From positions 1-25,364 of IMG/VR virus record IMGVR_UViG_3300030430_000877: DNA of 25,364 nucleotides; one strand, given 5' to 3'. Below, in pieces: positions 20,272-25,364 of the stretch; position 1 is the stretch's first letter; each line of letters starts with the position of its first letter. The translations under genes were made by a program, and so were the position numbers. Source of the DNA: a virus. The notes beneath the pieces are model-generated. The model was not told the DNA's origin and searched no databases. It saw only the letters and a program-made list of their open reading frames with translations.

Positions 20272-20626
20272 CCTCTTGCTCCACATAAAATTCTGTTGCC
20301 CACATCACCAACTGACCACGGCCTGACTTGCCCTTACGCTTGCGGTCATCCACCTTCACCAGCCCCTTCTCTTTTAGTTGCTTGTACCGGGCAGTGACTG
20401 TGCTGTAGCCATAGTGTGGCAGTCTTGCTTGAACCTCATCAGAGATGCACCCTGTCGTACCAAAGTCTTGTATGGCTTCAAGAACTATCTGTTCCATACG
20501 GTTTGCGTCTAGGCTCTCAGCCGCCGCGTGACTTGTTGATGGGTCTTCATTCCGTACCAGCTTGTAAACTGGCGTGGGTATCGAAAACAAATCATCCATG
20601 TCATCTAAATCTTTCGCTGTAATCAT
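20264..20626 (-). CDS. Winged-helix DNA-binding protein
   Basis: Start at ATG 20626, which overlaps the exonuclease stop as ATGA and has GGGAG 8 bases upstream; a TTG at 20632 is less likely. 120 residues. A Ser/Thr region (NEDPSTSHAAAESLDANR) precedes a winged-helix domain (about 40-105): MEQIVLEAIQDFGTTGCISD, then EVQARLPHYGYSTVTARYKQ as the recognition helix and KGLVKVDDRKRKGKSGRGQL as the wing. Small phage proteins of this type sit among replication/recombination genes and are thought to act as regulators or replication accessories. Confidence 0.7.
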   Translation of the reverse strand: MITAKDLDDMDDLFSIPTPVYKLVRNEDPSTSHAAAESLDANRMEQIVLEAIQDFGTTGCISDEVQARLPHYGYSTVTARYKQLKEKGLVKVDDRKRKGKSGRGQLVMWATEFYVEQEDG

Positions 20627-21495
20627 TTCCAAAACTCCCTTGCTAGTTGAAGAATATGTGGCCCATGTTTCCTTGCGATCTCCGTAAAGTCGGGGGCAAC
20701 AAGGCCAGCTAGTGTGTGCCAGTTTCCGTTAGCGGCACGAATAAGATTTTGTGTTGTAATCCAACTACGCTTCACATCTTGGTAGACTTGCTCAAGATGT
20801 TGCTCTTGTAGCAGTTCGCAGTTGTCCTCATCCCAGATGTGATAACCTGATGCAGTGACTTGTAGCAGTGATGGCTTCTGACCTGTCGCTCTCCAATACA
20901 CCGACATCTGTTTGATATTATTTTCGCTAGGCTGGGTGTCGGGCTTTGGTATGCGCCATGTGCGTGTGCCATCTTTTTTCAGTGGGTTTCTCTGTGGCAT
21001 TTTGCATTTGAGATCGCACAGCACATCACCACCATAAAAGTCGCGGAACATCATAATCTTTACATCAAGTTCTGGGACGCTATGCCACGTTTGATGCTCA
21101 CCGTTGATAATGTTGAGTCCATGTTTGTTTTGCCAAGCCTTCAAGCCTTCAAGAGCGTTGCCAAGCATATCAGGCAAGTATTCTCTAAAAGCCTCAAACT
21201 CCTCTCTGTCTTTGCCTTCGTCCCAATCCCTTGGGACATACTCATCAAAGTCTGCCATCATGTGCCGGGTAGCTTCAGCAACTGACATACCGTCTTGCTT
21301 TCCCTTGTCTGGGTCAAAGTTTTCCAATCCCTCGACACGGCGCACCCCACCCTCAACGGTGCGTCCTGTGAGCATAGCTGCATTATCTGGAAACACAGGG
21401 TTTAGATTCGTTGTCGCTCTGAGCCACAACTTAAATATCATTTCGTATTTTGGTGACGTTGCGCCACTCGCGCTATCGTGTTGGTAAATATCCAT
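20623..21495 (-). CDS. PD-(D/E)XK exonuclease (Cas4/YqaJ/lambda-Exo superfamily)
   Basis: 290 residues. Nuclease motifs in order: GRTVE with E48, an acidic residue before the core (D144 or D152), D161-L-K163 in the LCDLKCK strand, and QMSVY (Q196, Y200), the Q-x-x-x-Y helix typical of this superfamily. In the PD-(D/E)XK fold these residues bind two metal ions to cut DNA from an end. Together with the annealing protein downstream it forms a likely exonuclease-annealase recombination pair. The start overlaps the upstream stop by one base (TAATG). The C-terminal codons contain one copy of the AACTAGCAA element. Confidence 0.75.
   Translation of the reverse strand: MDIYQHDSASGATSPKYEMIFKLWLRATTNLNPVFPDNAAMLTGRTVEGGVRRVEGLENFDPDKGKQDGMSVAEATRHMMADFDEYVPRDWDEGKDREEFEAFREYLPDMLGNALEGLKAWQNKHGLNIINGEHQTWHSVPELDVKIMMFRDFYGGDVLCDLKCKMPQRNPLKKDGTRTWRIPKPDTQPSENNIKQMSVYWRATGQKPSLLQVTASGYHIWDEDNCELLQEQHLEQVYQDVKRSWITTQNLIRAANGNWHTLAGLVAPDFTEIARKHGPHILQLAREFWK
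20640..20648 (-). repeat. AACTAGCAA element, copy 1
   Basis: Exact. Inside the last codons of the exonuclease (Leu-Ala), followed by GGGAG and then the ATG of the winged-helix gene at 20626. Confidence 0.6.
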
Positions 21496-21812
21496 TACTG
21501 AATATATCCTCTGTCAGCTTTTTTAACGTAAAGCTTTGGGGTATCAACAATATCTTTTGCTTTTATATTTTTGAGATGATTGATGATGGCTGCATGTGTC
21601 GCGGCAGCAGAGCGACACAACCCAAAATACTCAGGGTCAAACCACGCGCTTTCTTTGTAATAATCGGCATCACTCAGTAGTTCGCGCAGTGCTTCATTGT
21701 CCGTGCCATCAACTAAATAATGTGTTTTTGTCTGACGAATGATTGTCGGTGCAATCAGGTCACGTTCACAATGGTCATCGTAAAACCTTTTTCCAATCTT
21801 TATAGTTTTCAT
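21495..21812 (-). CDS. Tandem paralogue A, unknown function (105 residues)
   Basis: Starts MKTIKIGKRFYDDHCERDLI and contains TKTHYLVDGTDNEAL. About 25 of the first 45 residues are identical to the next gene upstream (21849-22160): KR-Y-DH, D-AP-II-TKTHY-D-T-N-A-EL. The shared half is a compact beta-rich unit; the second halves diverge except for a SAAATH/SAKATL helix. AAGGAG lies 7 bases before the ATG, directly after an AACTAGCAA element. It is early in the divergent operon, consistent with an immediate-early host-modifying role, but nothing in the sequence states a function. Confidence 0.6.
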   Translation of the reverse strand: MKTIKIGKRFYDDHCERDLIAPTIIRQTKTHYLVDGTDNEALRELLSDADYYKESAWFDPEYFGLCRSAAATHAAIINHLKNIKAKDIVDTPKLYVKKADRGYIQ

Positions 21813-21848: not shown

Positions 21849-22160
21849 TTATTTTATTTTATGGTCAATACCACCTCTATCGTAAATCTTTGAAACAGAC
21901 TCGCGATAGTCTTTATGGTTTCCTATAATCTTGAGTGTCGCTTTAGCTGAAAGAACAATGCCTCTACAACCGTTTTCCCAATAGTCGGGGAACGTAGTAT
22001 CAGCATACATTTCGGCTCTTTGACGCAACTCAGTCATGGCATCGTTCTCTGTTGCGTCTATGATGTAGTGAGTTTTTGTTTCTTTAATAATCTTTGGGGC
22101 CACGCAGTCACAGTCAACGTGATCCTGATAATATCTTTTTGGAATACGATATGTTTTCAT
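21849..22160 (-). CDS. Tandem paralogue B, unknown function (103 residues)
   Basis: Start at ATG 22160 (MKTYRIPKRYYQDHVDCDCV), chosen because it aligns with the paralogue's start and has TGGAG 7 bases upstream; an in-frame ATG at 22172 lies inside the AACTAGCAA element. Shares the KR-Y-DH-D-AP-II-TKTHY-D block with its neighbour. Differences include extra cysteines (C18, C20) near the N-terminus. It is the first gene after the divergent minus-strand promoter. A 36-base A/T-rich gap separates the pair. Function unknown. Confidence 0.6.
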   Translation of the reverse strand: MKTYRIPKRYYQDHVDCDCVAPKIIKETKTHYIIDATENDAMTELRQRAEMYADTTFPDYWENGCRGIVLSAKATLKIIGNHKDYRESVSKIYDRGGIDHKIK

Positions 22161-22171
22161 TGCTGTCTCCA

Positions 22172-22180
22172 TTGCTAGTT
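22172..22180 (-). repeat. AACTAGCAA element, copy 3
   Basis: Exact, followed by TGGAG and ATG 22160. Copies 2 and 3 may be one inherited leader, since the genes are paralogues. Confidence 0.6.
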
Positions 22181-22185
22181 TTTTT

Positions 22186-22214
22186 ATTTTGGCACAGCGT
22201 AAACATATTGTCAA
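22186..22214 (-). promoter_or_regulatory. Divergent promoter, minus strand (drives 22160 to 18671)
   Basis: Reading minus strand: -35 TTGACA (22214-22209, perfect consensus), a 17-base spacer, then -10 CAAAAT (22191-22186; 4 of 6). It leads into the paralogue/recombination operon. The -35 overlaps that of the opposite promoter almost completely. Confidence 0.55.
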
Positions 22215-22232
22215 CATATTTGTTTTGTGCCA
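22190..22232. promoter_or_regulatory. Dyad operator spanning both divergent promoters
   Basis: TGGCACA (22190-22196) and TGTGCCA (22226-22232) are perfect inverted arms. Their midpoint, base 22211, is also the midpoint of TTGTCAA (22208-22214), the shared -35 core. The outer arms touch each -10 element. Inside, ACATATT repeats directly at 22203 and 22214, 11 bases apart. A regulator bound here would control both operons; the adjacent HTH proteins are natural candidates. Confidence 0.55.
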
Positions 22233-22236
22233 TACT
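22208..22236 (+). promoter_or_regulatory. Divergent promoter, plus strand (drives 22264 to 23750)
   Basis: -35 TTGTCA (22208-22213), a 17-base spacer, -10 CATACT (22231-22236; 4 of 6). A transcript would start near 22243 and reach the HTH gene at 22264, whose ribosome site is GAGGTG. The -35 core is shared with the minus-strand promoter. Confidence 0.5.
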
Positions 22237-22263
22237 GGAAGCCAAATCGAAAAGAGGTGTGTT

Positions 22264-22473
22264 ATGACACTAAGGGAATATTTGAAGACTAACAAGATCA
22301 GTCAGGCCCGATTCGCAAGACGGTGTGGGATTACTCGCTCTGCCGTTTGTCACTTCATAGCTGGCAGACGCTACCCAAGCCCAGAAATCATGCGTAGGAT
22401 TCTATTAGCAACAGATGGTGAGGTAAAGCCGAATGACTTTTTTAATCAGACAATGCTATCGGTGCAACGGTAA
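22264..22473 (+). CDS. Cro-like helix-turn-helix regulator (69 residues)
   Basis: Start at ATG 22264 (MTLREYLKTNKISQARFARR) with GAGGTG just upstream. The HTH of the XRE/Cro type spans about 13-34: SQARFARRCGITRSAVCHFI followed by AGRRYPSPEIMRRILLATDG. A single short domain of this size suits a Cro-type regulator. It is the first gene of the plus operon, facing the minus operon across a dyad operator, so it probably represses one or both promoters. Which one cannot be read from the sequence. Confidence 0.8.
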   Translation: MTLREYLKTNKISQARFARRCGITRSAVCHFIAGRRYPSPEIMRRILLATDGEVKPNDFFNQTMLSVQR

Positions 22474-23349: not shown

Positions 23350-23750
23350 CTGATAGCAGAAAGAAAGGCGCTGTGTTTGAGCGTCAGATTGTAAACTACA
23401 TCAAAGACCATCTTGGCGAATCATTGCCGGAGTTGCCGAAACGGAACCTCTCTCAATACCAAGTGAAAGGTGAGGCTGACATTCTGATCCCCGGCTACAG
23501 CATCGAGTGCAAGGCTTATGCATCTGGCAGTAGCTACAAACAGGCATGGTGGGAACAGGCTTGTGACTCTTCTGGTGATCGCTTTCCCGTTCTCATTTAT
23601 AAGTTCAACAATCGCCCAATCCGTTGCGTAATACAGCTTATGGCTATCTGCCGTGATTTCTCTTATGACCCACGGCTTGTTGCAGAAATGTCGCTACCAA
23701 CTTGGGTTCAAGTGGTGCGTGAAAGTTATGGGGTTGACAAGAAAAATTGA
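23346..23750 (+). CDS. PD-(D/E)XK endonuclease-like protein (resolvase-type fold)
   Basis: Start at ATG 23346 (MTDSRKKGAVFERQIVNYIK), ATGA overlap with the methyltransferase stop; a TTG at 23340 is not needed. 134 residues. Nuclease signature: E12, G42-E43-A44-D45 (D45), E54-C-K56, then Q66/Q71. This arrangement is shared by Holliday-junction resolvases and small phage endonucleases. Role: resolving branched phage DNA, or cutting DNA alongside the neighbouring methyltransferase. Last gene before the convergent intergenic region. Confidence 0.65.
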   Translation: MTDSRKKGAVFERQIVNYIKDHLGESLPELPKRNLSQYQVKGEADILIPGYSIECKAYASGSSYKQAWWEQACDSSGDRFPVLIYKFNNRPIRCVIQLMAICRDFSYDPRLVAEMSLPTWVQVVRESYGVDKKN

Positions 23751-23778
23751 CTTGATAAAATCGCGCCTGCGCGTTCCT

Positions 23779-24547: not shown

Positions 24548-24588
24548 GAGAAGCCGCCATAGCGCAACGCTTTGGCGGTTTCTCTTTT
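24548..24588 (+). other. Strong stem-loop with T-run on the plus strand
   Basis: GAGAAGCCGCC (24548-24558) pairs with GGCGGTTTCTC (24574-24584, one G-T), and an inner AGCG/CGCT stem closes a CAA loop. TTTT follows on the plus strand. On the minus strand it begins three bases after the stop of the 70-residue gene but lacks a T-run there. It may therefore stop plus-strand (antisense) transcription or structure the minus mRNA. Confidence 0.55.
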
Positions 24589-25361: not shown

Positions 25362-25364
25362 AGC

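Follow-up and report, generated by a model that had tools for sequence, protein, structure and literature searches.

Two predicted divergent promoters sharing one -35 core in an uncultured virus related to HTVC010P-type pelagiphages

In the lambda-type Cro/CI region a small HTH_3 gene is the first gene of an early unit, the early promoters are divergent and recombination genes lie on the opposite side. The conjugation switch of pLS20 has the overlapping divergent promoters Pc and Pr, and the inability of RNA polymerase to bind both of them is part of the switch (PMC4207663). Bidirectional promoters described by the Grainger group consist of pseudo-symmetric DNA which polymerase can bind either way, one binding event blocking the other (PMC12825309). 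HTVC010P-type phages (proposed Ubiqueviridae) rank among the most abundant marine viruses, have no RNA polymerase of their own and include phages with under 60% average nucleotide identity; for Skadi-1 only four unspecified sigma-70 promoters are listed (PMC10504331). A published transcriptome covers other pelagiphage types (PMC12753301).

Here we analysed the first 25,364 bases (the window) of a 33,596-base (33.6 kb) record of an uncultured virus. Core elements of two predicted divergent promoters overlap at 22208-22214, and this overlap is conserved. The two -10 elements are separate and not shared as in the bidirectional promoters of the Grainger group.

The promoter gap and its gene setting

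The terminase of the window virus is ~50% identical to HTVC010P-type pelagiphage terminases. Its connector, capsid and tail proteins could be matched to known phage families, and the terminase, connector, capsid and HTH/nuclease gene pair are all related to HTVC010P-type phages. The link to the pelagiphages came via the terminase and nuclease proteins; at the DNA level, 5 kb of the window matched nothing among known phages. Open reading frames in both halves of the 33.6 kb record were inspected, and no integrase was noticed among them.

The gap (22161-22263, 103 bp) lies between the minus-strand gene of a 103-aa protein and the plus-strand gene of a 69-aa HTH protein (Table 1). The leftward unit contains small proteins, the nuclease and recombination genes, and the rightward unit HTH, zinc-ribbon-like, RusA-like and methyltransferase-like genes. 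A structure model of the 69-aa protein shows five helices at a mean pLDDT of 77. The structures most similar to it were controller proteins (C.BclI), YdaS, HigA and P22 c2, every match being weak by E-value because the protein is small. The gene of a 113-aa HTH protein is found 1.9 kb from the promoter pair, in another unit; upstream of it, at 24551-24580, the G+C-rich inverted repeat GAAGCCGCCATAGCGCAACGCTTTGGCGGTTTC precedes a T-rich stretch on the plus strand. Between the nuclease and the promoter lie two similar small minus-strand genes (21495-21812 and 21849-22160) with near-identical starts, a 31-bp repeat being present at both. In close kin (L003, L004 and L006-L008) the first leftward gene differs and the promoter is kept, giving a mosaic junction at the promoter.

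According to the initial annotation, TTGACA on the minus strand and TTGTCA on the plus strand overlap at TTGTCAA with 17-bp spacers, and all letters and distances were found to be exact. The plus -35 (22208-22213) and the minus -35 (22214-22209) overlap by five bases, and we infer promoter activity and the start sites from this sequence. The record was scanned for overlapping -35 elements on opposite strands, each with a -10 at 16-18 bp. Among 836 scan candidates in the 33.6 kb record the site in the gap ranked first, and the shared-core site had a P of ~0.004 in dinucleotide shuffles of the region. The strongest promoter-like match in the 4 kb scanned, TTGACA-16-TAAAAT with TG, was at 23734-23761 on the plus strand; it overlaps the end of the rightward unit and faces the convergent region.

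Table 1. Features of the promoter gap and adjacent genes (window coordinates).
Feature	Position	Strand	Remarks
Shared -35 core TTGTCAA	22208-22214	both	invariant in 7/7 of window clade; recurs in isolated pelagiphages and 59/74 contigs
Predicted rightward -10 CATACT	22231-22236	+	17-bp spacer; TG one base upstream; predicted start near 22243; 5/6 positions invariant in window clade
Predicted leftward -10 CAAAAT	22186-22191	-	17-bp spacer; TG one base upstream; predicted start near 22179
20-bp block AGCGTAAACATATTGTCAAC	22196-22215		invariant in all seven window-clade members
Candidate HTH operator GTAAAC-ATATT-GTCAAC	22199-22215		centre 22207; degenerate form of the TTGAC-N5-GTCAA present upstream of HTH homologues
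43-bp dyad, arms TGGCACA/TGTGCCA	22190-22232		present, not conserved
Leader element AACTAGCAA	22172-22180	-	just downstream of leftward -10; part of repeated start-associated element
69-aa Cro/CI-type HTH protein	22264-22473	+	first gene of rightward unit; HTH_3 E 2e-8, phrog_35 E 1e-10
103-aa protein, no family match	21849-22160	-	first gene of leftward unit; resembles 105-aa product of 21495-21812
290-aa nuclease homologue	20623-21495	-	family directly divergent from HTH gene in 9/10 HTH clades

A constant distance gives independent support to the predicted leftward promoter. The leftward -35 is 29-30 bases from ACTAGCA both in the window clade and in the diverged L063 clade, in which the intervening sequence differs from that of the window clade, and this places the predicted leftward start at the ACTAGCA element. 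Repeats of AACTAGCAA(A/G)GGA stand just ahead of the start codons of leftward early genes, and ten of the 11 ACTAGCA copies in the record are on the minus strand within the leftward early region (26689, 26478, 25579, 25288, 24826, 24540, 23916, 22179, 21831 and 20647 in record coordinates; the window ends at 25364). The start-associated element was also detected in L006, L015, L019 and L074; the L084 and L109 stretches had no copies and HTVC010P showed no such pattern. In placement the element is like the Start Associated Sequences of cluster K mycobacteriophages, whereas in sequence it is unlike them (PMC3203893).

Conservation of the core and of the 43-bp dyad

In total thirty-five HTH relatives were found, with the HTH protein being 93-97% identical in the six nearest. 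Together with the window these form the window clade (n = 7), and across its 103-bp gap both -35s are invariant, as are five of the six columns of the rightward -10 and two of the six columns of the leftward -10. The leftward hexamer differs in kin (TAGGCT, TAGAGT), with the spacer length, the TGTG and the distance to ACTAGCA unchanged. The invariant block reaches 15 bases to the left of 22211 and only 4 to the right.

The 7-bp arms centred on 22211 and the ACATATT repeat, which the initial annotation had also described, are all present (arms at 22190-22196 and 22226-22232, ACATATT at 22203-22209 and 22214-22220). The dyad is symmetric at 15/21 positions (P ~0.005 within the region). It only ties for second across the whole 25 kb window, the inverted repeat at 24551-24580 being equal to it in symmetry, and shuffling of 103-bp regions produces a pair of 7-bp arms by itself in 16% of cases. 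When conservation of the dyad centre was checked in the six close relatives, the score at 22211 dropped to 9-13/21, with four of seven columns of the left arm and three of seven of the second ACATATT invariant, and the genes were kept. Because of this decay the 43-bp dyad is largely private to the window sequence; loss of the dyad with retention of the genes is the outcome that the initial annotation had named as refuting it, and the dyad was rejected as an operator. Part of its symmetry arises because both promoters have a similar extended -10 (TGTGCCA; TGTGC(C)-type) equidistant from the shared -35.

The matching gap of ten isolated HTVC010P-type phages has the same design, with -10s 16-18 bp off on both sides, the HTH gene or its successor on one side and the nuclease/annealing-protein operon on the other. 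The core is TTGTCAA in seven of the ten and TTGCAA or TTGTAAA in the other three. Gp14 of HTVC034P is homologous to the window HTH (31% identity over 67 residues, E 3e-10) and is divergent from the nuclease, which is followed by the annealing protein. HTH homologues were also present in HTVC010P, HTVC203P, HTVC204P and the Lederberg and Skadi phages. In the shared-core scan the gap ranked first or joint first genome-wide in HTVC010P, HTVC204P, Skadi-1, HTVC035P, HTVC024P, HTVC100P, Greip and the window, and fourth to seventh in Lederberg, HTVC034P and HTVC203P. Shuffle P values of these sites ranged from 0.001 to 0.18, three of the ten isolates (0.06 to 0.18) being not clearly above chance alone, and the combined P was ~2e-10 (Fisher, ten isolates; shared ancestry ignored). 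HTVC106P, HTVC028P and C72C1 had no clear shared core. Some annotated starts, of the HTH gene in HTVC034P and HTVC010P and of the nuclease gene in HTVC034P, reach into the promoter gap (L123, 5070-5342 and 5327-6322; L133, 30415-30801). These annotations are probably too long, because conserved starts (MTL...) are found further in.

In HTVC035P, HTVC024P, HTVC100P and Greip a six-frame search detected no HTH homologue (best E 0.36), and their first gene is a homologue of the second gene in the HTH-bearing phages. The TTGTCAA core is the best shared-core site in each of these four phages, and the shared -35 is therefore independent of the HTH. This speaks against the initial proposal that nearby HTH genes are needed to read the element. 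The 113-aa HTH was likewise rejected as a reader of the site, as several kin records with the same intergenic signal, some of them incomplete, contain no homologue of it.

Additionally, we examined 180 bp upstream, on the HTH strand, in 74 viral contigs with an HTVC010P-type nuclease and enough flank. The 80 loci behind this count are those closest to HTVC010P and sample the group unevenly. TTGTCAA was found in 59 of the 74 contigs as compared to 0.011 expected per locus (~0.8 in all), with both -10s at 4/6 or better in 45 of the 59. Eight further contigs had TTGCAA, which is itself palindromic, and the remaining seven had apparent coding sequence there, probably since the match starts inside the gene. 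Recurrence at the locus in ten isolates and most of the contigs thus supports the two divergent promoters on one -35 of the initial annotation, here read as sigma-70-type.

Explanations for the shared core

We consider it probable that the gap holds two host sigma-70 early promoters which exclude each other via one -35, with Cro-like HTH feedback where the HTH is present. Both divergent early promoters of a phage using the host RNA polymerase would then lie in this gap. Sigma region 4 would hold TTGTCAA in one orientation only and the polymerase footprints would overlap by some 45 bp, so that the leftward and rightward units could not start simultaneously; mutual exclusion of RNA polymerase at the shared core may reasonably be inferred. 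Early output would be split between the two units by competition. The HTH product is probably Cro-like, binding at or beside the core and lowering both promoters as it accumulates, and this feedback may run through TTGAC-N5-GTCAA-type sites where the gene is present. The importance of the exclusion depends on how strong the promoters are: in E. coli, promoters built on a similar logic often fire with no measurable competition, and mutually exclusive ones compete only if one or both are strong (PMC12825309). Points against this explanation are the variable leftward -10, the upstream regions of HTH clades 1-9, which lack the shared-core layout, and the three isolates near chance. More tentatively, HTVC010P-type phages could control the first step of infection independently of a regulator: host RNA polymerase would have to use one -35 in one direction or the other, and this would set in what ratio or order the regulator operon and the recombination operon are expressed, HTH feedback having been added in some lineages.

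The upstream regions of 64 HTH loci were sorted into ten groups (clades). In clades 1 and 2 the leftward -35 is kept but a clear rightward promoter is missing. In place of one shared core, clades 3 to 9 carry a pair of inverted -35-like boxes spaced 9 bp apart. The left half of the TTGAC-N5-GTCAA palindrome can act as a rightward -35, and in several clades (L079-L110) only 5-6 bases separate the end of the predicted rightward -10 from the ATG of the HTH gene, whose messages may therefore be leaderless. On this sequence evidence the palindrome may be an HTH operator, two inverted -35 boxes, or both. HTH relatives were also sought in bacterial and archaeal genomes, and none was confirmed there.

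It was considered whether the conserved sequence is primarily a repressor operator, with an HTH dimer on TTGACA-N3-TGTCAA (in the window the degenerate TAAACATATTGTCAA, centre 22207). The shared -35 would then follow from operator placement, the half-sites merely coinciding with the -35 boxes. GTCAAC (TTGAC on the other strand) is found upstream of the HTH gene in 9/10 clades, exceeding shuffles, and TTGAC-N5-GTCAA or near forms in seven of the ten. In 10 of 13 kin records there is a single exact palindrome, located at the HTH gene ~20 bp before its start codon, and the reversed control never occurs; clades 3 and 4 have a second GTCAAC 32 bp upstream. The half-site spacing of 10 bp fits a Cro-type dimer, and the invariant block of the window clade reaches leftwards into the leftward spacer. 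However, TTGTCAA is kept in the four pelagiphages without the HTH gene, which weakens an operator as the sole reason for conservation, and the palindrome is absent from the isolates, HTVC034P among them. A matrix derived from the other clades gave the window copy a poor score, and a scan of the 33.6 kb record with this matrix neither singled that copy out nor ranked it first. The HTH recognition helix varies strongly between clades (TRSAVC, SRATIC, NESTIS) and GTCAA is constant, and therefore polymerase contact is argued to be part of the reason for its conservation. Taken as the primary explanation, an operator is unlikely.

Chance was also weighed, as AT-rich intergenic DNA could yield promoter-like matches on both strands and make the overlap meaningless. 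There were nine promoter-like sites against 6.4 expected in the 4 kb scanned, and AT-rich pelagiphage genomes commonly yield shared-core scores of 17 to 18, but the recurrence of this core at one locus in phages whose average nucleotide identity is below 60% (PMC10504331), together with its frequency in the contigs, makes chance very improbable. Hardly credible is the model of the initial annotation, in which one 43-bp operator with outer arms centred on 22211 is read by HTH proteins and forms a bistable either/or switch. The dyad is real in the window, but its decay in the six relatives largely refutes this model, no repressor gene lies across the promoter pair, and the core persists without the HTH gene.

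If two competing host sigma-70 promoters are indeed present, a conserved pair in one 100-bp gap, with natural versions with and without an adjacent regulator, would allow a direct test of gene timing and offer a clean natural case for the effect of polymerase competition at a shared -35.

Comparison with known systems

The window is similar to the lambda-type Cro/CI region in having a Cro/CI-type HTH at the promoter pair and recombination genes on the other side. In contrast to lambda, it has no second repressor across the promoters, the divergent gene coding for a nuclease homologue in nine of the ten clades and, in the window, for a small protein with no family match. It also appears to lack a three-operator set, an integrase was not seen, and the core survives loss of the HTH. 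HTVC010P-type pelagiphages share with the window the gene pair, the terminase, connector, capsid and tail-tube genes and the shared -35 core. However, the terminases are only ~50% identical, and the window has extra paralogous small genes between the promoter and the nuclease. The window virus probably has another host, because its G+C is 45% in comparison to about 32% in the HTVC010P-type phages.

Both pLS20 and the window have overlapping divergent promoters, one of them leading to a regulator gene, with exclusion in the window being suggested by the geometry. In pLS20 the coincidence is between the -10 of one promoter and the -35 of its partner, whereas in the window it is between the two -35s. 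The pLS20 regulator activates its own promoter and the DNA loops between two operators; neither activation nor a second operator was found in the window. The Grainger-group promoters are alike in that polymerase could bind either way, but they share a -10 and their starts are commonly 10, 18 or 23 bp apart, whereas the window shares a -35 and the predicted starts are ~64 bp apart (PMC12825309). Arrangements of this kind are already known from pLS20, in which polymerase contributes to switching at overlapping divergent promoters (PMC4207663). No report of a shared -35 in a phage was found in the open-access literature and, as far as this search could tell, the new part is the shared -35 as a conserved trait of a whole phage group.
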